Source of the DNA: Halogranum gelatinilyticum
Lineage (GTDB): Archaea; Halobacteriota; Halobacteria; Halobacteriales; Haloferacaceae
Assembly: GCF_900103715.1 (NCBI RefSeq)
Contig: NZ_FNHL01000001.1
Span: 1,035,295-1,099,294 of the forward strand
Length of the DNA: 64,000 bases
Direction of reading: 5' to 3'
Shown here: piece after piece, positions 18,033 through 48,954 of the stretch
How the letters are laid out: each line of letters opens with the position of its first letter
How positions within the stretch are numbered: position 1 is the first letter of the stretch
The notes under the pieces: model-generated
Seen by the model: the letters and a program-made list of their open reading frames with translations, nothing else
What the model was told of the DNA's origin: nothing
Databases searched by the model: none
Position numbers and translations under genes: made by a program

Positions 18033-18078
18033 TTTTTAAGTACAATCACCCGGTAGAAGCGTGCAGTTACCAGGGGGA
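18033..18078 (+). promoter_or_regulatory. Promoter and ribosome-binding region of pilB
   Basis: A TATA-like element TTTTTAAG lies at 18033-18040. Initiation about 26 bases downstream would leave a leader of roughly 20 bases. The run AGGGGG before the ATG at 18082 could be a Shine-Dalgarno sequence. This supports the ATG at 18082 rather than the GTG at 18061. Confidence 0.5.
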
Positions 18079-18081
18079 TCT

Positions 18082-19713
18082 ATGTCACAAGACAATCGTG
18101 AGCCGTCCGAGGAGGACTTCTTCGCCGGGCTTCGGGAACGGCTCACCCACACAGTGCAGGTGCTTCGAGGCTCGAACCTCGACGTCCGTCCGTTCCGGCC
18201 CGGCGAGGACGGTCCGCTGTCCGACTTCAGCCTCCCGGCTGGGCACGAGGAGATCGACCGCTACTGGGTCAACGCCCCGTACGCCTACGTCGTCGTCACC
18301 CACGACTCCGAGGCGAGCGAACACTACTACCACGTCGTCGAACCCGACGTCACCGACTTCGAGGCCGACCTCTTCGAACGGGTCCTCGTCGACATCCGCG
18401 ACCCGCTGCTCTACCGGTCGGCCGACGGCGACGCCGACGAGGAGACCGTCCTCCGCGAGGAACTCACGGAACTCCTCCAGCAGTACGGCGTCGACATCGG
18501 GATGGCGACCTTCCATACGCTGTTCTACTATCTCTACCGGGACTTCATCGGCTACGGCAAGGCCGACGCGCTGCTCCACGACGACCACATCGAGGACATC
18601 TCCTGTGACGGCTACGACCTGCCAATCTTCATCTACCACGACGACTACAGCGACATCGAGACCAACGTCTCCTTCTCGGAGGGCGAACTCGACGACTACG
18701 TCATCCGACTCGCCCAGCGGTCGGGCCGCCACATCAGCGTCGGCGACCCCGTCGTCAGCACGACGCTCCCCGACGGCTCGCGTGCGGAGCTCTCGCTCGG
18801 CAAGGAGATCACTCCGCGCGGGTCGGCGTTCACCATCCGACAGTACGCCGATGAGCCCTTCACCCCCATCGACCTCATCGACTACGGCACCTTCTCCGTC
18901 GAGATGATGGCCTATCTCTGGCTCTGTATCGAACACAACAAGTCGCTCATCTTCGCCGGCGGGACGGCCTCAGGGAAGACCACCGCGATGAACGCGGTGT
19001 CGATGTTCATCCCCCCGCGCGCGAAGGTGCTCACCATCGAGGACACCCGCGAACTCGCGCTCTACCACGACAACTGGCTCTCCAGCGTCACCCGCGAGCG
19101 GCTCCACGAGGGCACGGACATCGACATGTACGACCTGCTGCGGTCGGCACTCCGCCACCGTCCGGAGTACATCATCGTCGGCGAGGTGCGCGGTGACGAG
19201 GCCGTCACCCTCTTCCAGGCGATGAACACGGGCCACACGACCTTCTCGACGATGCACGCCGACAGCATCGAGACGGTCATCAACCGCCTGGAGAACGACC
19301 CCATCAACGTGCCGCGGGCGATGGTGCAGTCGCTCGATATGCTCTCGATCCAGACGCTCACCCGCTTCGAGGGCGAGCGTGTCCGCCGGTCGAAGGTGCT
19401 CGGCGAGATCGGCGGCATCGACCAGCGGACGGGCGAACTCGACTACTCCTCGGCCTTCCAGTGGGACGCCAACAGCGACAGCTTCCGCCGCAACGACAGC
19501 GACCTGCTCTCGGAGATCCAGTCCGAACGTGGCTGGTCGCGGTCGGAGCTTCTGAAGGAGGTCCGCCGTCGCGAACAGTTCCTCGAATATCTCCAACAGT
19601 ACGGCGTCAACGACTACCGCCGCTTCACCGCCCTCGTCAACGAATACTACGCCACCCCCGAGCGCGTGATGGACCGACTCGCCTCCGGCGCGCCCGAGGC
19701 GAGGGCCGCCTGA
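18082..19713 (+). CDS. pilB: Type II/IV secretion ATPase (PilB/TadA family)
   Basis: A 543-residue secretion-superfamily ATPase. Walker A is GGTASGKT at residues 293-300; the Asp box (IEDTREL) and Walker B/His-box region (IIVGEVRGDEAVTLFQAMNTGHTTFSTMHAD) follow. The N-terminal domain has the YWVNAPYAYVVV block shared with the larger PilB3-type protein at 55584. It powers assembly of type IV pilus-like fibres in the cytoplasm, with the membrane platform encoded next (TGATG overlap). No pilin gene is next to it, so subunits must come from elsewhere. Confidence 0.9.
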   Translation: MSQDNREPSEEDFFAGLRERLTHTVQVLRGSNLDVRPFRPGEDGPLSDFSLPAGHEEIDRYWVNAPYAYVVVTHDSEASEHYYHVVEPDVTDFEADLFERVLVDIRDPLLYRSADGDADEETVLREELTELLQQYGVDIGMATFHTLFYYLYRDFIGYGKADALLHDDHIEDISCDGYDLPIFIYHDDYSDIETNVSFSEGELDDYVIRLAQRSGRHISVGDPVVSTTLPDGSRAELSLGKEITPRGSAFTIRQYADEPFTPIDLIDYGTFSVEMMAYLWLCIEHNKSLIFAGGTASGKTTAMNAVSMFIPPRAKVLTIEDTRELALYHDNWLSSVTRERLHEGTDIDMYDLLRSALRHRPEYIIVGEVRGDEAVTLFQAMNTGHTTFSTMHADSIETVINRLENDPINVPRAMVQSLDMLSIQTLTRFEGERVRRSKVLGEIGGIDQRTGELDYSSAFQWDANSDSFRRNDSDLLSEIQSERGWSRSELLKEVRRREQFLEYLQQYGVNDYRRFTALVNEYYATPERVMDRLASGAPEARAA

Positions 19714-21803
19714 TGCTCTGGGTGGTCCCGCTCGCCGTCGCCGCCGTGCTCTGTCTGGTCGTCGTGCTCGACACCGTCGACAAGCGCATCCGGCTCGCGG
19801 TCACACGGGTCGCACTGGCGCTCTTCGGCGACTACGTCGTCACCGCGGACGACGCCGACCGCCGTCAACAGCAGATGCGCGCGGCCCACATCGGCGTGAC
19901 CCACCGCGTCTACGCCGCCCGGACACTCCTCTACAGCGGGATCTTCGGCGTCGTCGGCAGCCTCCTCGGCATCTATCTCGCGGCGGGGCTCGTCTCGGCA
20001 CTCTCGCTCACGTCCGAGGGTATCCGCGCCTCGCTGCCGTCGACGCTGGGCTTTCTCGGCAACCTCGCAGCCGTCCCGTCGCTCGACATCGGCGAGCTGT
20101 TCGTCCTCCTGCTCTTTGCGAGCGCGACCGTCGGGACGCTGCTGGCCGCCGGTTCGTACTACGCGCGCTGGTTCTATCTCGACCAGCTCGCGGTCGCCCG
20201 CGCGAGTGCCATCGAAGCGACGCTCCCCCGGACCGTCGCGTTCGTCTACGCGCTCTCACGCAGCGGGATGTCGTTTCCGCAGATCCTCCAGACGCTCGTC
20301 GACAACCGGCAGGTCTACGGAGCCTCAGCTACCGAAATCGGCGTCGCCGTCCGCGACATGGACACCTTCGGAACCGACGTCATCACCGCCCTCCAGCGGC
20401 TCGGACGGCGGACGCCCAGCGACGGTCTGGAGGAGTTCTCCGAGAACCTCGCGAGCGTCCTCTCCAGCGGCCGGAGTCTCTCGGACTTCCTCCACGCCCA
20501 GTACGAACGGTACCAAGAGGAGGCGCAGGCCCAACAGGAGCAGTATCTCGAACTGCTCGCGACGTTCGCCGAGGTCTACGTCACGGTGCTCGTCGCCGGA
20601 CCGCTGTTCTTCATCACCATCCTCATCGTCATCGGCCTGGTGTTGCAGGACACGCTGACGTTCATCCGGTTCATCTCGTATCTCGGCATCCCACTGGCGA
20701 GCGCGGCGTTCATCGTCTACATCGACAGCATGGCGAACGCGACGCGGTTACACGGCGACAGCCGGCTGTCGCCCCGTCAGTCGTTCACCCGCTCGTCGTT
20801 CGCGGCCGACGGCGGCGTCCGCTCGGCGACGGCGTCCGAGCGGCTCAACCGGCGAGTGCTCGCGACCTACGACCGGCTCCGTCCGGTCAAGCGGTGGCTC
20901 GACGACCCCATGGAGATGGTCCTTCGCCATCCTCTCTGGTCGCTCACCGTCACCGCGCCGGTCGGTCTCGCCTACGTCGCTCTGCAGGCGGACCTGCCGG
21001 GTCGGACGCTCCCACCGCTGGAGCGGTTCGACCTCTACAAGGCGTTGGACCTCATCGACGACCCGCTCGTCCACGCGACGATTCTCGTGCTCATCGTCTT
21101 CTCTCTGGCCTACGAGGCGCGGAAACGCCGCCTGCGTGCGATGGAGATGGCGATTCCGGACTTCCTCGACCGGCTCGCGAGCGTCAACGAGGCCGGACTC
21201 ACCGTCGTCCAGAGCGTCAAGCGCGTCTCGGAGAGCGACCTCGGCGCGCTCACGCCCGAGGTCAGGCGCGCGTGGCGCGACATCCAGTGGGGTGCCGACG
21301 CAGAGCGCGCCCTCCTGCGGATGGCTCACCGGACGTCGTCGCCGACGGTCATCCGTGCGGCGACGCTCATCACCAACGCGATGCGCGCGACCGACGACAT
21401 CGCACCCGTCCTCCGCATCGCCGCCGACGAGGCACAGTCCAGCCGTCGCCTCCGCCGCGAGCGTCGCAACGAGATGGTCACCTACCTGCTCGTCATCTAC
21501 ATCTCGTTTTTCGTCTTCATCGGCATCATCGCCGCACTGACGGTGTCGTTCCTCCCGGCCATCGAGGCGACCCAGAGCGTCAGTACGGGTGCCCCCTCGG
21601 GAATCGTCTCCGGCGGCGTCTTCAGCGGCATCGGCGACGTCGACACCGACGCCTACCGGCTCTTGCTCTACCACACCGCGGTCATCCAGGCGGTCTGTTC
21701 GGGTCTCATCGCTGGACAGCTCGGTGAGGGGACCGTCTCCGACGGCGCGAAACACGCCGCGATCCTCCTGACCATCGCTCACGTCTCGTTCCTCCTGATG
21801 TGA
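19713..21803 (+). CDS. pilC: Type II secretion F / TadC-like pilus platform protein (PilC)
   Basis: A 696-residue multi-pass membrane protein with two T2SF domains. Each has a cytosolic helical part (for example ATLPRTVAFVYALSRSGMSFPQIL and AIPDFLDRLASVNEAGLTVVQSVK) followed by membrane helices. The start at MLWVVPLAV begins a hydrophobic segment and overlaps the pilB stop. The longer frame upstream is Arg-rich shadow. It is the inner-membrane platform for the PilB ATPase. The gene ends 47 bases before a methyltransferase gene. Confidence 0.9.
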   Translation: MLWVVPLAVAAVLCLVVVLDTVDKRIRLAVTRVALALFGDYVVTADDADRRQQQMRAAHIGVTHRVYAARTLLYSGIFGVVGSLLGIYLAAGLVSALSLTSEGIRASLPSTLGFLGNLAAVPSLDIGELFVLLLFASATVGTLLAAGSYYARWFYLDQLAVARASAIEATLPRTVAFVYALSRSGMSFPQILQTLVDNRQVYGASATEIGVAVRDMDTFGTDVITALQRLGRRTPSDGLEEFSENLASVLSSGRSLSDFLHAQYERYQEEAQAQQEQYLELLATFAEVYVTVLVAGPLFFITILIVIGLVLQDTLTFIRFISYLGIPLASAAFIVYIDSMANATRLHGDSRLSPRQSFTRSSFAADGGVRSATASERLNRRVLATYDRLRPVKRWLDDPMEMVLRHPLWSLTVTAPVGLAYVALQADLPGRTLPPLERFDLYKALDLIDDPLVHATILVLIVFSLAYEARKRRLRAMEMAIPDFLDRLASVNEAGLTVVQSVKRVSESDLGALTPEVRRAWRDIQWGADAERALLRMAHRTSSPTVIRAATLITNAMRATDDIAPVLRIAADEAQSSRRLRRERRNEMVTYLLVIYISFFVFIGIIAALTVSFLPAIEATQSVSTGAPSGIVSGGVFSGIGDVDTDAYRLLLYHTAVIQAVCSGLIAGQLGEGTVSDGAKHAAILLTIAHVSFLLM

Positions 21804-22573: not shown

Positions 22574-23197
22574 TTAGAACGCTTCCCAGTCAGTCGGTGC
22601 GTCCAGCCGTCCGCGACGGCGGAGTTCGCGGCCGTCGTCGGTCTCGCGTGTCTCGATAATCGCGTCGAAGGGGTCGTAGAGCGTGTGGAGGGTCTGTTCG
22701 TCGTGCATCGTCGAGCCGACGACGGAGACACAGGACCACGAGAGGTCCTCGACGCGGTCGAGGAAGACCCGGAGGAACTGATAGACGCGTTGGGCGTCCC
22801 AGTACATCAGGAGCGTCGACAGCGAGGAGAGACCGACGGCGACGTGCTCGCGGTCCTCGAACTGCTCGGTGAGCGTGGTAAACTGGATGCCGAGCTGGGT
22901 GAGGTTCTCCGGCGACCCCACGTGGCGGACGAGATCGTCGCCGTCGGCGTCGGCGTCGCCGGCGGAACCCGCGCAGTCGACGACGCCGACCGACTCGGAT
23001 GGGAACCCGGCGAGTTCGTGGACGTCCCGGCGTATCGTCGCCGCCTGCGTGTCCGTGGAGACGACAATGAGATCGTCGGCAGTCGCCGCGAGGAGTCGGA
23101 GCATGACGGTGTACTTCCCCGTCATGGGCGGCCCGGAGACGAGTAGCGACTCGCCGGGGGAGAGTGGCTCGGAGAGAAGAGCGGGGAGACCGGACAT
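22574..23197 (-). CDS. KaiC/RecA-like ATPase, divergent
   Basis: A 207-residue protein starting at MSGLPALLSE. It has a P-loop GPPMTGKYT at residues 22-30, then a RecA-like core (LIVVSTDTQAATIRRDV, VAVGLSSLSTLLMYWD as a possible Walker B strand). It is shorter and more divergent than the KaiC-like protein two genes upstream. It is third in an operon whose promoter carries two copies of the motility-island palindrome, so a role in taxis signalling or archaellum control is inferred from context only. Confidence 0.65.
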   Translation of the reverse strand: MSGLPALLSEPLSPGESLLVSGPPMTGKYTVMLRLLAATADDLIVVSTDTQAATIRRDVHELAGFPSESVGVVDCAGSAGDADADGDDLVRHVGSPENLTQLGIQFTTLTEQFEDREHVAVGLSSLSTLLMYWDAQRVYQFLRVFLDRVEDLSWSCVSVVGSTMHDEQTLHTLYDPFDAIIETRETDDGRELRRRGRLDAPTDWEAF

Positions 23198-23245
23198 ACG
23201 ATACCTGCGCGACGGAGACACAAAACGTTTGACTGTCGTGTTCCG

Positions 23246-23662
23246 TCAGTCGCGCCGCAGGAAGTCGGGAAGATTCAGTCGGTCGCGGCCGTCGGCACGG
23301 GGCCGGTCGAGCAGCGTCGTCCGCGCGAGCGACGGCGGGAGGTCGAAGCGACTCGGCGGCCGATGGCGGTCGACGACGGTCTCCAGCGACGTCGACTCGC
23401 CGTCGACGAGCGTTCGCCACATCGTCCTTGCGTCCGCGTCGCTCGCCGTCTGTCGGAACTCGTTGGCTTCCTGTCGGCCTTCGCGGTAGGCGAGTTCGAC
23501 CATACTGCGCTCGTAGCTGGTGTCGACCGTCGCCCGGAGGCGGTCGTACTCGTCGGGGTGACGCTCGCCCATGGCCGCAGCGACGCCGAGGGCGTAGGCC
23601 CGGTGGAGCACCTCGTCACGCGAGAGGTCCGTCCAGTCGGTCCCGAGTTCGGCGGCGTACAC
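23246..23662 (-). CDS. Conserved haloarchaeal protein, KaiC-like operon
   Basis: A 138-residue soluble protein. The first 75 residues are helical (DEVLHRAYALGVAAAMGERHPDEYDRL, then SYERSMVELAYREGRQEA), and the tail is basic and Pro-rich (RHRPPSRFDLPP). No known domain is recognised. It starts 2 bases after the stop of the KaiC-like gene and ends 48 bases before the next ATPase, so it is the middle gene of the operon. It could be a partner of the two ATPases. Confidence 0.6.
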   Translation of the reverse strand: MYAAELGTDWTDLSRDEVLHRAYALGVAAAMGERHPDEYDRLRATVDTSYERSMVELAYREGRQEANEFRQTASDADARTMWRTLVDGESTSLETVVDRHRPPSRFDLPPSLARTTLLDRPRADGRDRLNLPDFLRRD

Positions 23663-23664
23663 GG

Positions 23665-24360
23665 CTACTCACCCGGGGCTTCGCCGGGATGGACGACCAG
23701 TCCCTGGTCGGTGAACTCGACGCGGTTGATGTCCGTGTCGACGTCGGTCCCGCGCATCTTGACCACCTGCACGCCCCGGTTCATCCCGCCCTCGTCGAGG
23801 TAGTTGTGGAAGAAGATGACCCCGTGGGCCAGATAATGTTCGTCCGTGTACGCCGAGGGGTCGGTCATCTCCGAGATGAGGATCGTCGTCGCGTTCGTCC
23901 GCTTCAGCGACGAGAGGAACTGGATGACGGTGTCCTCGTCGTCCGAGAGGAAATACCGCAGCAGCATCGTCGAGTCGATGATGAGCCGGTCGATGTCCCG
24001 CGACTGGACGAACGAGACGATGCGGTTGCTGAGACTGGAGCGGTCGCGACGCTCGCCGGGCAGCCCGAAGAACCGCTTGCCGTCCGAGGAGAATGCGTCG
24101 AGGTAGGTGACGCCCTCCGTCGAGAGTGCCCGCTTGAAGCCGAAGTCGAAACTGTCCATGTCGGAGACGATGTCCGCCTTCGTCTCGTGCATACTGATGT
24201 AGAGACATTTGTCGCCCTGCATGGCGCCGCGGGTGAGAAACTGCGAGGAGAACGTGGTCTTTCCGCTGCCCGGCGGCCCGCTCAAGAGATACAGCCGCCC
24301 TGCGGGCATCCCACCACCGACGAGTTCGTCGAAGCCATCGACGCCGCTTGCGATTCGCAT
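23665..24360 (-). CDS. KaiC-like RecA-superfamily ATPase
   Basis: A 231-residue single KaiC domain. It begins RIASGVDGFDELVGGGMPAGRL, then Walker A GPPGSGKT at residues 28-35. Walker B is likely DRLIIDST. The C-terminal blocks (MRGTDVDTDINRVEFTDQGLVV) fit the COG0467 family. These proteins act in signalling and control; ArlH of the archaellum is a relative. The gene leads a three-gene operon. Its promoter region has a TATA-like element 24383-24390 and two palindromes of the motility-island type (24405-24418, 24437-24450). Confidence 0.8.
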   Translation of the reverse strand: MRIASGVDGFDELVGGGMPAGRLYLLSGPPGSGKTTFSSQFLTRGAMQGDKCLYISMHETKADIVSDMDSFDFGFKRALSTEGVTYLDAFSSDGKRFFGLPGERRDRSSLSNRIVSFVQSRDIDRLIIDSTMLLRYFLSDDEDTVIQFLSSLKRTNATTILISEMTDPSAYTDEHYLAHGVIFFHNYLDEGGMNRGVQVVKMRGTDVDTDINRVEFTDQGLVVHPGEAPGE

Positions 24361-24382
24361 AGGACAACGCTCTGAGTGGCCG

Positions 24383-24418
24383 TAGATAAGTGTTCGTCCC
24401 CGGTTTTCAGGGCTGATA
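24383..24418 (-). promoter_or_regulatory. Motility-type operator and TATA element before the KaiC-like operon
   Basis: The palindrome TTTCA-GGGC-TGATA (24405-24418; four of five bases of the first half-site fit) is centred 25 bases upstream of a TATA-like CTTATCTA on the minus strand (24383-24390). That element lies about 27 bases from the ATG, so the transcript would be nearly leaderless. Confidence 0.7.
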
Positions 24419-24436
24419 ACGACAAGAGACCGGGGT

Positions 24437-24450
24437 TCTCAACCCTGATA
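24437..24450 (-). promoter_or_regulatory. Second motility-type operator before the KaiC-like operon
   Basis: TCTCA-ACCC-TGATA, one mismatch from the consensus. Its centre is 32 bases, about three helical turns, upstream of the first copy. It has no separate TATA element, so it probably acts together with the proximal site. Confidence 0.5.
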
Positions 24451-24467: not shown

Positions 24468-24908
24468 CTACGCGGCGGCTTCCGGCTCGGCGCGCTCGCG
24501 GTCGATCTCCGGTTCGACCCAGACGACGAAGCCGTCGTCGCGCTTGACGATGCCGCGGATGGACTCCTCGTCGGCGAGGGTGGTCTCGTCGACGTCCTCC
24601 TCGGTCACGGTCACGACCTGGTAGACCTCGTCGACGACCCAGCCGATGGCACCCTGGTCGCCGGTCGTCTCGGGGTCGAAGACGACGATGCGGTTCCGCG
24701 CGCCGTCGCCCTCGATGCCGAAGACGGTCTTGGGGTCGATGATCGAAGTCGTCCGGCCGCGCAGGTCCATGACGCCCTCGACGTGCGGTGGCGAGTTCGG
24801 AATCATCGTCAGCTCACCGGCGTCGACGATCTCGTCGATGTAGGCGATGTCGAGGCAGTACGACTCGCCGCCGAGACCGAATTCGAGTACTTGTGTTGGT
24901 TGTGACAT
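24468..24908 (-). CDS. cheW: Chemotaxis adaptor CheW
   Basis: A 146-residue CheW: double beta-barrel SH3-like domain with the blocks FGLGGESYCLDIAYIDEIV, VEGVMDLRGRTTSIID and the end WVVDEVYQVVTVTEEDV. It links transducers to the CheA kinase at the inner face of the membrane or in soluble arrays. The C-terminal tail is acidic. It is divergent from cheB across a 190-base gap that holds a palindrome suited to drive both directions. Confidence 0.92.
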   Translation of the reverse strand: MSQPTQVLEFGLGGESYCLDIAYIDEIVDAGELTMIPNSPPHVEGVMDLRGRTTSIIDPKTVFGIEGDGARNRIVVFDPETTGDQGAIGWVVDEVYQVVTVTEEDVDETTLADEESIRGIVKRDDGFVVWVEPEIDRERAEPEAAA

Positions 24909-24935: not shown

Positions 24936-24992
24936 CTCAAAAGGGTATCCCCCGGATTATCAGCACTGATTATTTGGACGGAGCGTTTATCC
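24936..24992. promoter_or_regulatory. Bidirectional motility-type operator between cheW and cheB
   Basis: The palindrome TATCA-GCAC-TGATT (24958-24971) is flanked at nearly equal distance by two TATA-like elements: CTTTTGAG on the minus strand (24936-24943, 25 bases from the centre) for cheW, and GTTTATCC on the plus strand (24985-24992, 24 bases from the centre) for cheB-cheA. The plus transcript would have a leader of about 85 bases. Confidence 0.65.
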
Positions 24993-28267: not shown

Positions 28268-29079
28268 GCCGCAGCGAGACCGACGACCGGGGCTTCCAGC
28301 GCGTCATCAAGCATATCGCCGACGAGGTGGACTTCGAACCCGGCTACTACAACGACGCCTACCTCGGGCGGCGCATCACCGCCCGGATGCGGCGGTGCAA
28401 GGCCGAGGACTACGACAGCTATCTGACCGTCCTCCGTCGCGACGACGAGGAGCGTGACCTCCTCTTGGACTCGCTGACGGTCAACGTGACCAACTTCTTC
28501 CGCAACCCCGAGATGTGGGAGGCACTCCGGCCGGTCCTCCGCGACCTCACTGCCGACCGTCGGCGCGTCACCGCGTGGAGCGCGCCCTGCGCCGACGGCC
28601 GCGAACCTTACTCGATGGCGATGCTGGCGAAAGACGACCCCGAAATCGTCGCCCGCAAGCTGTCGATTCTCGGGACCGACATCGACCGCGAAGCACTCGC
28701 GGCCGCTCGCCGCGGCGAGTACGAGACGACGCGGACGACCGACATCGGCGGCGAACTCGACCCCCTGACCGATGCGGCGGCCTACGTCCGCCAGGAGGGC
28801 GACCACTTCCGCGTCCGCGACGCGGTCAAACGGATGGTCGAGTTCGAGCGTCACGACCTCATCCGCGACGGGTCGAAGTCCGGCTTCGGGCTCGTGATGT
28901 GTCGGAACCTGCTCATCTACATCGACACGGAGTACAAGCAGGCCATCTTCGACACCATCACCGACTCCATCCGGCCGGGCGGCTATCTCGTCATCGGGAT
29001 GACCGAGTCGCTGCCGCCCGCCTCCCGCGAGGTGTTCACGCCCGTCGACAAACGGCGGCGAATCTACTGCAAGGAGTAA
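28264..29079 (+). CDS. cheR: Chemotaxis methyltransferase CheR
   Basis: A 271-residue CheR. The N-terminal helical domain (YLGRRITARMRRCKAEDYDSYL) and the methyltransferase core (TVNVTNFFRNPEMWEAL, WSAPCADGREPYSMAML as the SAM site, LGTDIDREALAAARRGEY, VMCRNLLIYID) are all present. It methylates glutamates of transducers from SAM, opposing CheB. It is translationally coupled to cheA and is followed after 8 bases by a HEAT-repeat gene. Confidence 0.95.
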   Translation: MSRSETDDRGFQRVIKHIADEVDFEPGYYNDAYLGRRITARMRRCKAEDYDSYLTVLRRDDEERDLLLDSLTVNVTNFFRNPEMWEALRPVLRDLTADRRRVTAWSAPCADGREPYSMAMLAKDDPEIVARKLSILGTDIDREALAAARRGEYETTRTTDIGGELDPLTDAAAYVRQEGDHFRVRDAVKRMVEFERHDLIRDGSKSGFGLVMCRNLLIYIDTEYKQAIFDTITDSIRPGGYLVIGMTESLPPASREVFTPVDKRRRIYCKE

Positions 29080-29087
29080 CCCAACCC

Positions 29088-30311
29088 ATGTCCCTGTACC
29101 AACTCGCACGCGACGGCGACGCCGACGAACTGCTCTCTCGACTCTGGGAGAGCGACAGCGTGGCCGTCCGAACACGCGCGGCGGAACTGCTCGGCGAACT
29201 CGCAGACGAGAGCGACCACGAGATCGTCCGCGGCGTCGTCGAGGCCGCAACCGGCGACGACGACGAGGCGGTCCGCGCGGCCGCCATCGACGCGCTCGAC
29301 GAGATGGGACAGGCAGCCGTCGAACGGCTGCTCGCGGAGCTGACCGGCGTCGACGCCGACGGCGGTGCAGAGTGGGTGACGGCAAAGCGGTTCGCGCAGG
29401 CACTCTCGGCCGACCAACCGGAGCTCCGGATGGCCGCGGCCAACGCGCTCGGCCGTCTCGGCGACACGGCCGTCGTCCCTGCACTCGTCGACCGACTGGA
29501 CGACCCCGAGCCGCGGGTGCGGGCCCGCGTCGCCGCTGCCTGTGGCAGTCTCGGCGATCCGCGAGCGGTCGACCCGCTCGTCACGTTGCTCTCGGACAAC
29601 CGCCGCGACGTCAAACGGGCGGCCGCCGACGCGCTCGCGAACATCGGGACCGGTCCCGCACTGAGCGCGCTGCGGGACCTGCTCGACGACGACAGCGAGA
29701 CCATCCGCTGGGTCGTCGTCAGCGCGCTGGGAGAGGCCGGGTCGGTCGCGCCCGTCCGCGACCTCGCGGGCGCGCTCGGCGACGAGAGTTCCCTCGTCCG
29801 GCGGGCTGCCGTGTTCTCCATCATCGGGCTGCTGTCGAACGCGCCGCAGAACCGGAGCCACCAGGTCCGGGAGGCCGTCGTCTCGGAGCTCTCGGCAGTC
29901 GACGACGACGTCGTCGTCGGCCCGCTCGTCGAGATTCTCGAAGACAGCGTCCAGCGGCCCCAGCGGCGCAACGCGGCGTGGCTGCTCGGCCGCGTCACGC
30001 CCGAGGGACAGGCCGAACCCGTCACCGACGCGCTCGTCGACCTGCTGTCGGACGACGACGCGATGACCGCGCAGTTCGCGGCGACGAGCCTCACGGACGT
30101 CGGCGGCGAGTACGCCGAACGCCGCCTGCTCGACCTCGTCACCGACGACGACGCCGACGCGGCCGCACAGGCGAAGGCCGTGTTCGTCCTCGGCCAGATC
30201 GGCACGGACCGCTCGCGCGCCAAACTGGAGAAGCTGACCAACGAGTCCGACGACCAGGAGGTCAGACGCCGCGCGTTCGCGGCCCTCTCGAAACTCGGGG
30301 GGCACGCGTGA
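29088..30311 (+). CDS. HEAT-repeat protein of the chemotaxis operon
   Basis: A 407-residue all-helical protein made of about 10-12 HEAT-like repeats (recurring pattern xDPxxxVRxxAAxALGxLGD). The start at MSLYQLARDGDADELL follows cheR by 8 bases. It matches the position and type of the HEAT-repeat protein that, with CheF, was found to link Che proteins and the archaellum in Halobacterium (the OE2401F type). It probably serves as a scaffold. Its stop overlaps a possible 22-codon micro-ORF leading to cheF. Confidence 0.85.
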   Translation: MSLYQLARDGDADELLSRLWESDSVAVRTRAAELLGELADESDHEIVRGVVEAATGDDDEAVRAAAIDALDEMGQAAVERLLAELTGVDADGGAEWVTAKRFAQALSADQPELRMAAANALGRLGDTAVVPALVDRLDDPEPRVRARVAAACGSLGDPRAVDPLVTLLSDNRRDVKRAAADALANIGTGPALSALRDLLDDDSETIRWVVVSALGEAGSVAPVRDLAGALGDESSLVRRAAVFSIIGLLSNAPQNRSHQVREAVVSELSAVDDDVVVGPLVEILEDSVQRPQRRNAAWLLGRVTPEGQAEPVTDALVDLLSDDDAMTAQFAATSLTDVGGEYAERRLLDLVTDDDADAAAQAKAVFVLGQIGTDRSRAKLEKLTNESDDQEVRRRAFAALSKLGGHA

Positions 30312-35616: not shown

Positions 35617-36369
35617 TCAGGCCACGCTCCTCGACTCGATGACGATGCCCGTCCCCGAGCGGACGGAGAAGCCGATGATGTCGCCGACCTGCTCGCCCAT
35701 GCCCGCGAAGCGTTTGACCGAGATCTGTCGGCGGACGTCGCTGCCGACCTCGATCATATCGAGGGTCATGAACACGTCCGCGATGGCGCGGAACGGGCCG
35801 ATGGCCTCGTCGTCGACGGCCGAGGGGTCGACCGTGAGCACGATGATCTTCCCCCGGGAGATGACGTCCCGGAAGAACGAGATGATCTCGAGGGCGGCCT
35901 GCCGCTCCTCGTTGTTGCGGACGAGTGCCTCGAACGTCGGGTCGTTGCGGAGGATGGCGTCGAAGGTGTCGATGACGATGACGTCCGTCTGCCACATCAC
36001 CTGCGCCTCCATCAGCCGCTTCAGCAGTTCCTTGCGCTCGGTGTCGCCGCCGCCTGCGATGGTGCCGCCGGTGTCGAGGTCGGCGTGGAGGAAGAGCAGC
36101 TCCTCGTTCAGGAGCGGCTCGACCACGTCGTAGTCCAGCGAATACATCTGGTCGATGAACCCCCGGACCGTCAGCTCCGTCGAGAGGTAGGTGACGGCCG
36201 CGCCCTCCTGACACAGCCCGTAGGTCATCCGCTGGGAGATGGCACTCTTGCCCGCACCGTAGTCGCCCTCCATGAGGACGATGCTGCCGCGCGGGATGCC
36301 ACCGCCCAGTTCTTTGTTCAGCCGGTCGTGGTCGTCGAGGCCGAGTGAGAGGAGGTTTCGGTGGCTCAT
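35617..36369 (-). CDS. arlH: Archaellum regulatory ATPase-like ArlH (FlaH)
   Basis: A 250-residue KaiC-like protein. Walker A is GDYGAGKS at residues 35-42, and Walker B is in VIVIDTFDA. ArlH binds ATP and the ArlI ring and is thought to control its switch between assembly and rotation. It overlaps the arlG end by 4 bases. It differs from the two other KaiC-like proteins in the window by the acidic GDYG loop. Confidence 0.93.
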   Translation of the reverse strand: MSHRNLLSLGLDDHDRLNKELGGGIPRGSIVLMEGDYGAGKSAISQRMTYGLCQEGAAVTYLSTELTVRGFIDQMYSLDYDVVEPLLNEELLFLHADLDTGGTIAGGGDTERKELLKRLMEAQVMWQTDVIVIDTFDAILRNDPTFEALVRNNEERQAALEIISFFRDVISRGKIIVLTVDPSAVDDEAIGPFRAIADVFMTLDMIEVGSDVRRQISVKRFAGMGEQVGDIIGFSVRSGTGIVIESRSVA

Positions 36370-41153: not shown

Positions 41154-41738
41154 CTACTCTCCGGAGAAGGTGACGCCGTCGGCGTCGTCGATGGCGGCGA
41201 CCAGGTCGGCGATGGAGTCGTCGCCCGAGAGACCGTGGCGTCTGAGCAGGCCGACGAGACTCCGCTTCGGGAAGGTGATCGGCATATCCGACTCCGCGAG
41301 GAGGATACCGAGCGTCTCCTCGACGGGCGTGTCGCCGCCGATCTGCCGGGCGTACCAGAGCATCAGCGTCTCGAAGGTCGTCACGACGTCGTTCGAGACC
41401 ATCCGGTGGCGGACGACCGAGCCGTCGAACTTCAGCGTCGCGTCGAAGCCGTAGTCGAAGCCGTTGTCGGTCATCGACTCGGCGAGCCACTCGCTCACGG
41501 CTTGGGCATCGACGGCGGGCTCGGGCTGGTTCTGTTCAGGCATCGGTTCGGGCGTCGGCTCGGGTTCCGGCTCCGGCGGCTCCGGGTTCGATGGGACCTC
41601 GTCTGCGATGCCACCGGGTGAGATGAGAAACCGGTCGTCGCCCAGTTCTGCGACCTCGTCGCGGTCGCTGAGATCGAGTTCCTCGGGGTCGAGGACCGGC
41701 CCGTCTTTCGCGTCGTCGTTCGGTTCGTCTGGAGGCAT
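41154..41738 (-). CDS. Conserved haloarchaeal protein in the motility island
   Basis: A 194-residue soluble protein. Residues 1-45 are acidic, 46-75 are a Pro/Glu linker (PEPPEPEPEPTPEP), and the C-terminal 120 residues look folded and helical (AQAVSEWLAESMTDNGFDYG, LKFDGSVVRHRM, KRSLVGLLRRHGLSGDDSI). No domain is recognised. It lies between archaellin and cheY and is probably connected with motility by place only. No copy of the palindrome is seen before it. Confidence 0.6.
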   Translation of the reverse strand: MPPDEPNDDAKDGPVLDPEELDLSDRDEVAELGDDRFLISPGGIADEVPSNPEPPEPEPEPTPEPMPEQNQPEPAVDAQAVSEWLAESMTDNGFDYGFDATLKFDGSVVRHRMVSNDVVTTFETLMLWYARQIGGDTPVEETLGILLAESDMPITFPKRSLVGLLRRHGLSGDDSIADLVAAIDDADGVTFSGE

Positions 41739-41826: not shown

Positions 41827-42432
41827 TTACAGCTCGACCGCGTTCTCGCCAGCGAGCGACTCGGGGACCTTCACGCGGATGATGGTCGTCGAACCACTCT
41901 CGGTGTTGATGCGGATGGTCGCCTCTTCACCGGGTGCGAGGTCGGCGTTCTGGTTCGTGAACGCGTCCATGTCGAGCGAGAGCGTCAGGCGGTCACTGCG
42001 GTCGTTCAGGACGTACGAGCCCGTCGTACTGCCGTCGAGCGAGCCGTCTGCGTCCTTTAGGACGGAGTAGCTGTCAGGGGTCGTGCCACTCGCGTCGAGT
42101 GCGATGCGGTCGACACCCTTCGGCCCGATGAACTCGAGCGTCGCATTACTGATGTCGATGTCGCTCGCCCCCGGCGACTTCTGGAGGACGAGTTCGACGC
42201 TGCTGACCTTCTCGTCCGTCACGATACCCGTCTTCGCGACCGGCTCGAGGCGGTCCGTCACTTGTGCACTGCTCTGTTGACCCGTCTGCTCGGACTTCGT
42301 CTGCAGGAAGCCCGCCGTGTTGATCAGGACGCCTGCCGCGATCGCAGCGACAAGGACCATCGCGATGAACACGATCAGCGTACCGATACCGACCTGACCG
42401 CGTTCTTCGTCGTCGTGGATGAATTCGAACAT
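41827..42432 (-). CDS. arlA: Archaellin (archaellum filament subunit)
   Basis: A 201-residue major filament protein. The class III signal peptide is cut before a long hydrophobic helix (ERGQ then [21 protein letters not shown]), the site of PibD. The outer domain is beta-rich and acidic, with one N-glycosylation sequon (NAT in DISNATLEF). Only one archaellin gene is present in the window. Its mRNA seems to have a leader of about 60 bases, judged from the TATA-like element at 42516-42523. Confidence 0.93.
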
Positions 42433-42515: not shown

Positions 42516-42550
42516 TATTAAAACTACGTTCCAAAATATCACGTCTAATA
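42516..42550 (-). promoter_or_regulatory. Archaellin promoter with degenerate motility-type operator
   Basis: TATCA-CGTC-TAATA (42537-42550; one mismatch) is centred 24 bases upstream of a strong TATA element (TATTAAAA in plus-strand reading, 42516-42523). The archaellin ATG is about 84 bases further, so a leader of about 60 bases is expected. Confidence 0.65.
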
Positions 42551-42618: not shown

Positions 42619-42652
42619 AAATTTCACCCGTCTGAACATATCACTGCTGATA
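42619..42652 (-). promoter_or_regulatory. Orphan motility-type operator with TATA-like element
   Basis: A perfect TATCA-CTGC-TGATA (42639-42652) with AAATTT at 42619-42624 centred 24 bases away, as at the other sites, facing the archaellin gene. No open frame follows before the archaellin promoter. It could be a second archaellin promoter or start a small RNA. Confidence 0.5.
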
Positions 42653-42851: not shown

Positions 42852-43133
42852 TTACTCGTACGCGACGAGGCTGTAGACGACGAAGACGTATCCGAACGTG
42901 GTGAAGCCGCTGTTGACCAAGAGTAACGAGCGGGTACTACCGAAGTCGTTGACGAAGGCGCTGATCATCGTCGCTGCCGCCGCCGCGACGACCAAGACGA
43001 AGCCGAGCGACAGATGGACCATCGCCCGGCGACGCGTCTGCACGTATGCCCGCACTGCCAGTCCGACCATCGTCAGCCCGGCTATGATGAGCGCGGCACT
43101 GGAGACCAAGTAGAGGCTTTCTATCAGTTGCAT
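42852..43133 (-). CDS. Small three-helix membrane protein in the motility island
   Basis: A 93-residue protein starting at MQLIESLYLVSSA; the 16 upstream codons of the open frame are basic and would spoil the first membrane helix. Three membrane helices are predicted (about residues 6-26, 37-57, 67-90) with a basic loop (QTRRRAMV). No family is recognised. The promoter has a motility-type palindrome (43184-43197), so it is probably expressed with the archaellum. Confidence 0.65.
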   Translation of the reverse strand: MQLIESLYLVSSAALIIAGLTMVGLAVRAYVQTRRRAMVHLSLGFVLVVAAAAATMISAFVNDFGSTRSLLLVNSGFTTFGYVFVVYSLVAYE

Positions 43134-43162
43134 CTCTCTTTCGTGCAATCCCCACCGACTTC

Positions 43163-43197
43163 GCTTAACTGTAGCCCTCAAAATATTGAATCTGATA
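43163..43197 (-). promoter_or_regulatory. Motility-type operator and TATA element before the small membrane gene
   Basis: TATTG-AATC-TGATA (43184-43197; two mismatches in the first half-site) is centred 24 bases upstream of a TATA-like GCTTAACT (plus-strand reading, 43163-43170). The element is about 34 bases from the ATG at 43133. Confidence 0.55.
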
Positions 43198-43306
43198 ATC
43201 TCCCGGCCGAACCACCGCTACGGATGCCGTCAGCCGCACTGTCAGTCCGTCCGAACAGTCCAGTAGTCGGTAAAGTTATTAGATGATAAAGTAAGTCGTG
43301 GAACGA

Positions 43307-43642
43307 ATGGGTTCGGACGAGATCATCGAGGTCCTCGGGAACAAATACAACGCCGAGATTCTCAGCGCCGCATCTGAACCGAAGTCGGCACAGGAACTCA
43401 GCGACGAACTCAACGTCCCTATCGCGACCTGCTACCGCCGCATCAACGAGCTTACCGACGCGGATCTGTTGGAGCTACACGACCGACCTCTCTCGGACGA
43501 ACACCGGCGTATCAAAGTCTACCGTCGGAAGGTCGAAGCCGTCAACCTCACCTTCGAAGACGGTCTCTCCGTCGAACTGGAGGAACGCTCTGCGGTCAAG
43601 AACAAACTCGACGAGGTCTGGCGGACGATCTCGGACAGCTAG
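43307..43642 (+). CDS. Winged-helix transcriptional regulator in the motility island
   Basis: A 111-residue ArsR/TrmB-like regulator: IIEVLGNKYNAEILSAASEPKSAQELSDELNVPIATCYRRINEL forms the winged helix, with the recognition helix VPIATCYRRINEL, and the C-terminal part has a beta-rich segment and a helix (RSAVKNKLDEVW). The ATG at 43307 is preferred over GTG 43298 because an AT-rich element (AGTTATTAG) lies about 30 bases upstream, as for a leaderless gene. It is convergent with, and overlaps by 4 bases, the KaiC-like gene. It is a candidate for the motility regulator, by location only. Confidence 0.75.
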   Translation: MGSDEIIEVLGNKYNAEILSAASEPKSAQELSDELNVPIATCYRRINELTDADLLELHDRPLSDEHRRIKVYRRKVEAVNLTFEDGLSVELEERSAVKNKLDEVWRTISDS

Positions 43643-44364
43643 AAGACCGAATCCTCGCGACCCATCATCGAGAAGCCACCCGCACGCTCGTGGACGGTGA
43701 TTCCCCCCTCGCCGATCTCCATGGGGAAGATGTCCGTGTTGATGTTCTTCTTGCGCATCTTCGCCACCCAGACATAGCGGTTGACGCCCGAATCCGTCGG
43801 CGTCTGGATGAAGTAGATGTTCCCGTCCGTGAGGAAGTTCTCCAGGCCGATCTCGGTCTCCGGGAAGACCGCCCCCTGCTCGTTGATGAGCAGCGATGTG
43901 AGTCCGTTCTGCTTCAGGATGTCGGTGAATTTCAGGAGATACGTCCGGTTCTCGCGCTCGTCGTCGAAGAACAGCTGGAACATCGTCAGCGAGTCGAGGA
44001 CGAGCCGGTCGTACTTCGACTCCGTGAAGTCGTCGAGCAGCTTGTCGATGGCCGAGGTGAAATCACCCTCGCGGAGCATCACCTGCTTGTCGTACACCTT
44101 GATGTCGTCGTCCTCGACCAGTTCGCCCCACTTGTCGAAGCCGACGGACTCCGCGGCCTGCCGGATGTCCTCTGCGTTCTCTTCGAACGAGATGTAGATG
44201 CCGCGCTCGTCGAACTCCGTGACCCCTTTGTAGAGATACTGGATTCCGAAGATACTCTTTCCCGTTCCGGGGTTGCCGCTGACGAGTACCGCCGCGTTCT
44301 TTACGATACCGCCGTTGAGGACCGAGTCGAGTCCTTCGATTCCTGTTTTGAGTACTTCTGGCAT
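43639..44364 (-). CDS. KaiC-like RecA-superfamily ATPase
   Basis: A 241-residue single KaiC domain. It begins LKTGIEGLDSVLNGGIVKNAAVLVSG, with Walker A GNPGTGKS at residues 30-37, then YISFEENAEDIRQAAESVGFD (KaiC block) and Walker B near YDRLVLDSLTMFQ. It is the COG0467 type. It is distinct from ArlH and from the protein at 23665. Its 3' end overlaps that of the regulator gene. Its promoter has an inverted repeat about the TATA element. Confidence 0.8.
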   Translation of the reverse strand: MPEVLKTGIEGLDSVLNGGIVKNAAVLVSGNPGTGKSIFGIQYLYKGVTEFDERGIYISFEENAEDIRQAAESVGFDKWGELVEDDDIKVYDKQVMLREGDFTSAIDKLLDDFTESKYDRLVLDSLTMFQLFFDDERENRTYLLKFTDILKQNGLTSLLINEQGAVFPETEIGLENFLTDGNIYFIQTPTDSGVNRYVWVAKMRKKNINTDIFPMEIGEGGITVHERAGGFSMMGREDSVF

Positions 44365-48474: not shown

Positions 48475-48954
48475 ATGAATCGGAGCGACCGGGTTCTCCT
48501 CGCGGTGGCGTGTCTCGTCTGCGTCGGCGTCGCCGTCTCCGGCGTCGTCGACTTCGGGAGCGCGTCCACCACCCCAGTACCCGGCTCCGGCAGTGCCGAC
48601 GTCACCGTCGACGCCGCCCCTGACGACATCCAGTTCGTCGAGGGGCGGTTCGACTCGGGAACCTACCATCTCGAATCGTCGCCGGGAGCCGTGACCGCCG
48701 AGCGTGTCACGGGTAACCCAGTCGTGCGGCTCACGCTCGACATCCCCGCGTTGAGCCACACCGACACGACGTTCTACGAGCTACACGGTCGGGAGGATGA
48801 GACCCTCGAACTGACGTTCACGAACGCCGAGTTCAGCCCCGACCGCGTGACCCAAGCGGATTACAACGCAACGCTGGGCATCTGGCTCCAGGAGTCCGGC
48901 GGGGAGTTCACCGCGTTGTATCAAGAGCGTGTCACCGTCGAGGTGCAGCGGTGA
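48475..48954 (+). CDS. Secreted or membrane-anchored protein of unknown function
   Basis: A 159-residue protein with one N-terminal hydrophobic helix (residues 7-27, VLLAVACLVCVGVAVSGVV) and an acidic, beta-rich outer domain (TYHLESSPGAVTAERV, VVRLTLDIPAL, ETLELTFTNAEF). One cysteine lies in the helix. No family is recognised. It is co-transcribed with the large membrane protein gene: stop and start overlap by 4 bases. Confidence 0.65.
   Translation: MNRSDRVLLAVACLVCVGVAVSGVVDFGSASTTPVPGSGSADVTVDAAPDDIQFVEGRFDSGTYHLESSPGAVTAERVTGNPVVRLTLDIPALSHTDTTFYELHGREDETLELTFTNAEFSPDRVTQADYNATLGIWLQESGGEFTALYQERVTVEVQR

Follow-up and report, generated by a model that had tools for sequence, protein, structure and literature searches.

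Organization of the operon

We have analyzed a window of 64,000 nucleotides of the Halogranum gelatinilyticum genome that spans an archaellum/chemotaxis cluster, and within it an operon of three minus-strand genes beside cheW (Table 1). The first-pass annotation had described this operon, and all three genes are present. The first encodes a KaiC-like ATPase, whose start lies 107 bp from cheW; a gap of 2 bp separates it from the second gene, encoding a protein of 138 amino acids that we denote MID. The third encodes a protein with a KaiC-type fold and a DUF7504 domain. Its inner ATG is used in Table 1, and a GTG at 23221 offers an alternative start that would give a longer form (22574-23221).

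The window also contains candidate orthologues of two Haloferax volcanii proteins, CirA (HVO_1212) and CsmR (HVO_1209). The candidate csmR adjoins cirA and arlA, as it does at two loci in relatives (L041 and L065), and in the window these csmR and cirA genes are convergent with an overlap of 4 bp. At the same two loci, two genes with no assigned function, encoding DUF7500 (41154-41738, minus strand) and DUF7521 (42852-43181, minus strand), occupy the same position in the arl cluster as in the window. Genes for PilB3-like and PilC-like type IV pilus proteins (18061-21803, plus strand) directly flank the operon region, and likewise at L027. In the che operon a gene for a HEAT-repeat protein (29076-30311, plus strand) separates cheR from cheF, a position that is kept in relatives.

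Table 1. Coordinates of the operon, its promoter elements and related genes in the window
Feature	Position	Strand	Basis or remark
KaiC-like ATPase, placed in the CirD group	23665..24360	-	PF06745 (KaiC), E 4.8e-43
MID, 138 aa	23246..23662	-	adjoins KaiC-like gene in 136/136 copies
DUF7504 KaiC-fold protein (gene 3)	22574..23197 (inner ATG)	-	PF24336, E 6e-30
cheW, directly upstream of KaiC-like gene	24468..24908	-	PF01584, E 3.5e-25
BRE/TATA-like element CGAACACTTATC	24385..24396	-	sequence inspection
Proximal CsmR-type operator TTTCAGGGCTGATA	24405..24418	.	1 mismatch to TATCA(N4)TGATA
Distal CsmR-type site TCTCAACCCTGATA	24437..24450	.	1 mismatch to TATCA(N4)TGATA
CsmR-type site, cheW-cheB intergenic region (divergent promoters)	24958..24971	.	
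arlH, separate gene	35617..36369		
Candidate CsmR (HVO_1209) orthologue, 114-aa winged-helix protein	43298..43642	+	PF12840, E 6.6e-10
Candidate CirA (HVO_1212) orthologue, separate KaiC-like protein	43639..44364	-	PF06745, E 5.5e-50; clade apart from operon KaiC

The KaiC-like ATPase belongs to the CirD group

The KaiC-like protein has 231 amino acids and a single RecA/KaiC domain of the PF06745 family, with Walker A (GPPGSGKT) and Walker B (RLIIDST) motifs and a catalytic H-E pair. The Walker A sequence, the Walker B aspartate and the H-E pair are invariant across 13 aligned sequences. The fold and Walker motifs are those of cyanobacterial KaiC, but the operon protein has one domain rather than the tandem CI-CII arrangement and an H-E in place of an E-E pair, and there is no evidence of a clock.

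An affinity with ArlH had been suggested by the first-pass annotation. The two proteins share the KaiC/RecA fold, a single-domain architecture and a role in the archaellum, but the likeness ends at the level of the superfamily. The operon protein scores 56.6 bits against the NCBIfam ArlH equivalog model, compared to a cut-off of 215, and arlH is found elsewhere in the window; we therefore reject an identity with ArlH. CirA is likewise KaiC-like, encoded in the arl cluster and a regulator of motility. However, it is the product of a separate gene and lies in a separate clade, and the operon protein is thus not CirA. Deletion of cirA has the opposite effect to that of cirD, giving hypermotile rods. 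A tree was built from 72 KaiC-like sequences; in it the 42 haloarchaeal copies paired with MID form one clade (support 100/99) that excludes CirA, ArlH and the other KaiC paralogues of the genome. The same tree groups the window's haloarchaeon in one family with Halorubrum.

This MID-paired clade holds the loci that carry the published primer sequences for H. volcanii cirD, and for that reason the operon KaiC is placed in the CirD (HVO_2232) group, on the combined grounds of primers, synteny and clade. Matched locus by locus, the primers fit L062 at a spacing of 211 bp, one with 2 mismatches and the other with 1. The H. volcanii cirD gene is flanked by genes for an oxidoreductase and a hypothetical protein (PMC3941300), and the Haloferax-like locus L063 has these flanks, with an aldo/keto reductase upstream and MID downstream. 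In the window the MID side is kept, and cheW takes the place of the oxidoreductase on the other. The two genes also differ in setting, in that the H. volcanii gene lies outside the arl/che cluster whereas the window copy adjoins cheW and is accompanied by a third gene. Haloferax-like copies and the window copy are parted at the clade's deepest split, which has weak support (80/80), so that an old paralogy or a transfer is possible. We refer to the operon protein as CirD in what follows.

A CsmR-type operator at a conserved position

CsmR is a regulator of motility and cell shape in H. volcanii. Its binding motif TATCA(N4)TGATA, derived from ChIP-seq in a 2026 study, lies upstream of the BRE/TATA elements (PMC13286277). 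Two palindromes upstream of the operon, noted in the first-pass annotation, are real and exactly 32 bp apart, and both are close matches to this motif (Table 1). The center of the proximal site precedes the cirD start codon by about 51 bp, so that the site immediately precedes a BRE/TATA-like element standing some 25-30 bp before the ATG; a leaderless transcript would fit this distance, and BRE/TATA-like elements occur at equal distance in the promoters of relatives.

Allowing up to one mismatch, the window contains 9 matches to the CsmR motif compared to 0.16 expected, a number that no shuffle reached, and each of them falls in an intergenic region ahead of arl, che or transducer genes. The complete 3.77-Mb genome has only 22 such sites. 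By contrast, a looser 12-mer palindrome ATCAGNNCTGAT with 2 mismatches was found 16 times against 12.6 expected, i.e., at the level of chance, and hence only the published 14-mer is discriminating. Two CsmR-type sites in the window (42537-42550 and 42639-42652), separated by 102 bp and one of them a perfect match, precede the archaellin gene at 41827-42432. A site with 2 mismatches (48416) precedes the start of a gene for a 159-amino-acid protein (48475-48954, plus strand) by about 52 bp. Elsewhere in the genome, outside the window, sites at G000:C1:79994, C1:959910, C1:1243527 and C3:59127 mark candidate further members of the regulon.

We compared 43 loci with the KaiC-like gene, including that of the window. 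In 24 of them a match with up to 2 mismatches is centered 50-51 bp upstream of the start codon, compared to 0.015 in shuffles; the remaining 19 have no site at this position. Only two matches occur at other offsets, one being the distal site of the window itself. Evidently a single operator at a fixed position has been conserved, and the second is a local addition. The proximal site is present at all ten other loci linked to cheW, whereas the distal palindrome has no counterpart in any relative examined and is specific to H. gelatinilyticum. The importance originally attached to there being two operators is therefore not upheld. The motif upstream of BRE/TATA places cirD, by its promoter sequence, inside the putative CsmR regulon; in H. 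volcanii csmR mutants cirD is deregulated, its expression going up (PMC13286277).

MID is an obligate neighbor of CirD

The part of the operon that had gone unrecognized is its second gene. In a census of 293 genomes of the order, with the KaiC-like gene called at E below 1e-60, MID was found 6-81 bp downstream of that gene in every one of 136 copies, and the two genes occur in an identical set of 133 genomes. Three genomes (G140, G193 and G297) carry two CirD-MID pairs, and in the first two the second MID match is crossed by an in-frame TAG and may represent a copy in decay. Distances of CirD and MID are correlated over 13 taxa (r = 0.70), a correlation for which shared phylogeny could account and to which no weight is given here.

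Profile searches assigned MID to no Pfam or NCBIfam family and to no DNA-binding family, and found no relative in the PDB by sequence. The AlphaFold model predicts a confident helical domain at residues 1-90, comprising five confident helices, followed by a disordered linker, beyond which the C-terminus carries a conserved motif of the LPxFLRR type. Fold searches with the model returned matches at noise level only (best E of 1.2 in Foldseek; best Z of 4.9 in VIA, helical), which does not make MID a new fold.

The nearest KaiC-like genes found outside the haloarchaea are also followed by an open reading frame, of 135-175 amino acids (two Methanolobus genomes, two other Methanosarcinales and one Thermococci MAG). 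These align with MID by profile, with an hhalign probability of 83 and E = 8.6e-6; the score is 39, whereas among 60 column-shuffled controls the highest was 16.9. In a sampled search at the level of the phylum the haloarchaeal MID profile on its own gave, among the matches listed, only the window's own order, and these reading frames are therefore regarded as distant relatives of MID.

We found no earlier report of an obligate CirD-MID partnership, nor a description of the likely MID counterpart in H. volcanii, in the literature searched, whose scope took in few subscription papers; the partner may already have been noted elsewhere. Archaea have many KaiC-like ATPases, and for only a few of these is a partner known; with MID, CirD gains an obligate one. 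A conserved pair of genes need not by itself make a complex.

The CirD-MID pair follows the motility marker CheF

Using CheF as a marker, which serves as a proxy for motility only, the CirD-MID pair is present in 133 of 165 CheF-positive genomes and in none of the 128 that are CheF negative (Fisher 7e-53, phylogeny not being corrected for). At the level of the genus the corresponding numbers are 38 of 46 and 0 of 41 (p = 4e-17, again with no correction for phylogeny). Two relatives in the window's own genus (G001 and G002) lack both the pair and CheF. The first-pass annotation had proposed a link to motility that would fall if orthologues occurred mainly in non-motile species; by the CheF marker, the distribution does not refute the link. 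One cheW-linked locus (L032:7175-7852 in genome G023) has a KaiC-like gene interrupted by a TGA in frame, either a pseudogene or the product of an assembly error.

The distribution also bears on the suggestion that CirD-MID is a general regulator of growth phase or density that lies near motility genes by chance. CirD abundance does follow a density signal, falling more than 8-fold with that signal or conditioned medium (PMC12240190), and expression of the cir genes was reported to depend on light and dark (PMC3941300). Yet a regulator of so general a kind ought to be retained where motility is absent, and none of the 128 CheF-negative genomes has kept the pair; we regard this explanation as very improbable.

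The pair is absent from 32 CheF-positive genomes, mostly of one family (f17), so it is not a universal requirement for the archaellum. A diverged CirD in these genomes was considered and rejected. Their best matches are at about 1e-35, compared to 1e-99 or better in true members, leaving a clean gap.

Genomic placement of the pair

In one Haloferacaceae lineage CirD-MID adjoins cheW together with the DUF7504 gene, at 11 loci including the window. In other lineages it lies within the arl cluster and is transcribed divergently from cirA (L041 and L065), or adjoins cheW and cheB (L081), arlA (L077) or a set of che genes (L072); at the remaining loci it is found in other surroundings. Its recurrence next to motility genes in several different arrangements favors a functional association. 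Placement beside arl and che genes recurs for CirD and MID; the third gene is confined to the one lineage.

A specific tie to cheW or to taxis, also part of the original proposal, is not supported, since in many genomes the pair lies at a distance from the che genes. A related possibility is that CirD-MID serves the chemosensory side, i.e., CheW arrays and CheF signaling, rather than assembly of the filament. The adjacency to cheW with DUF7504 in the Haloferacaceae lineage and to cheW and cheB at L081 would agree with this, as would the use of CheF itself as the phyletic marker. But chemotaxis mutants would be expected to retain archaella, whereas H. volcanii cells deleted for cirD are bald (PMC13286277), and in most of the lineages examined the pair lies far from che genes. 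On balance a chemosensory role seems improbable. No KaiC-like partner appears in the interaction network of taxis proteins of Halobacterium salinarum (PMC3579733).

A possible role after transcription

A role of CirD in motility has already been published. Deletion of cirD in H. volcanii gave non-motile cells lacking archaella, with minimal effect on the transcripts of CsmR targets (PMC13286277). Together with operator position, phyletic profile and placement beside arl and che genes, this strongly supports the link between the operon and motility that the first-pass annotation had drawn; the proposal that the KaiC-like gene is a new layer of archaellum or taxis control is not supported. Added here are MID as obligate partner, with its strict phyletic link and its age, and the conserved position of the operator.

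CirD is more abundant in motile rods (PMC10869688), and ArlH is an autokinase whose state sets its binding of ArlI (PMC8978795). Taking these observations together with the near-unchanged CsmR targets in the bald cirD deletion and the shifts in CirD abundance, we propose a post-transcriptional role for CirD-MID. The operon probably forms a CirD-MID module that is dedicated to motility, controlled by CsmR in one sense or the other, and active after transcription. Through the CsmR-type operator just upstream of BRE/TATA, the two proteins would be produced along with those of the archaellum and chemotaxis genes, CirD being KaiC-like and binding ATP, and MID being its small, helical and obligate partner. 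By analogy with its relative ArlH, CirD may cycle between nucleotide or phosphorylation states and work through MID as adaptor or effector. In this proposal MID would contact CirD by its helical domain and a target by its conserved C-terminal LPxFLRR peptide, such that the two proteins would license archaellum assembly at a post-transcriptional step. MID is thus a concrete candidate for the missing component behind the unexplained phenotype of the cirD deletion, in which archaella are lost while CsmR-controlled genes are still transcribed. The pair marks an overlooked partner in making or controlling the haloarchaeal swimming filament.

The principal alternative to action after transcription is a switch at the level of transcription, resembling GvpD-GvpE of haloarchaeal gas vesicles, in which the ATPase would bind and inactivate or destabilize a regulator of motility, CsmR or another. 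GvpD is a P-loop protein acting on a small partner; it lowers the level of GvpE in a manner requiring its Walker motif (PMC4390858), and the GvpD P-loop model matches the operon KaiC (E 5.4e-7). The CirA paralogue has a regulon overlapping that of CsmR in H. volcanii (PMC13286277), and cirD is divergent from cirA at two loci. However, the match to GvpD is weak, MID has no DNA-binding family and is unlike the DNA-binding activator GvpE, and CsmR targets are barely affected in the bald cirD deletion (PMC13286277). We consider a switch of this kind unlikely.

The third gene encodes a probable pseudo-ATPase

The product of the third gene matches DUF7504 with 105 bits against a gathering score of 27, and its AlphaFold model (pLDDT 87) gives Foldseek matches to KaiC at E of about 1e-7, consistent with a KaiC-type fold. 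The first-pass annotation had taken it for a divergent P-loop ATPase, but the P-loop is a relic. There is no GxxxxGK[ST] sequence, Walker A having degenerated to GPPMTGKY in which tyrosine replaces serine or threonine, with GPPMxGKY invariant in all eight aligned sequences; the Walker B strand lacks its aspartate in the same alignment. By these motifs the protein is probably a pseudo-ATPase that no longer hydrolyzes ATP.

The third gene was rejected as a core member of the module, since CirD and MID stand alone in most lineages, and it is most likely a subunit added in the one Haloferacaceae lineage. There it could perhaps cap a CirD ring or serve as its regulatory subunit. A bolder and more tentative reading of the whole would make CirD-MID an ancient euryarchaeal KaiC-effector pair, older than the split between haloarchaea and Methanosarcinales, with MID as the missing output arm that licenses archaellum assembly post-transcriptionally and the DUF7504 pseudo-ATPase as a later third subunit. 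The genome has ten matches to DUF7504, and among the others a motif scan finds a canonical P-loop in just one.
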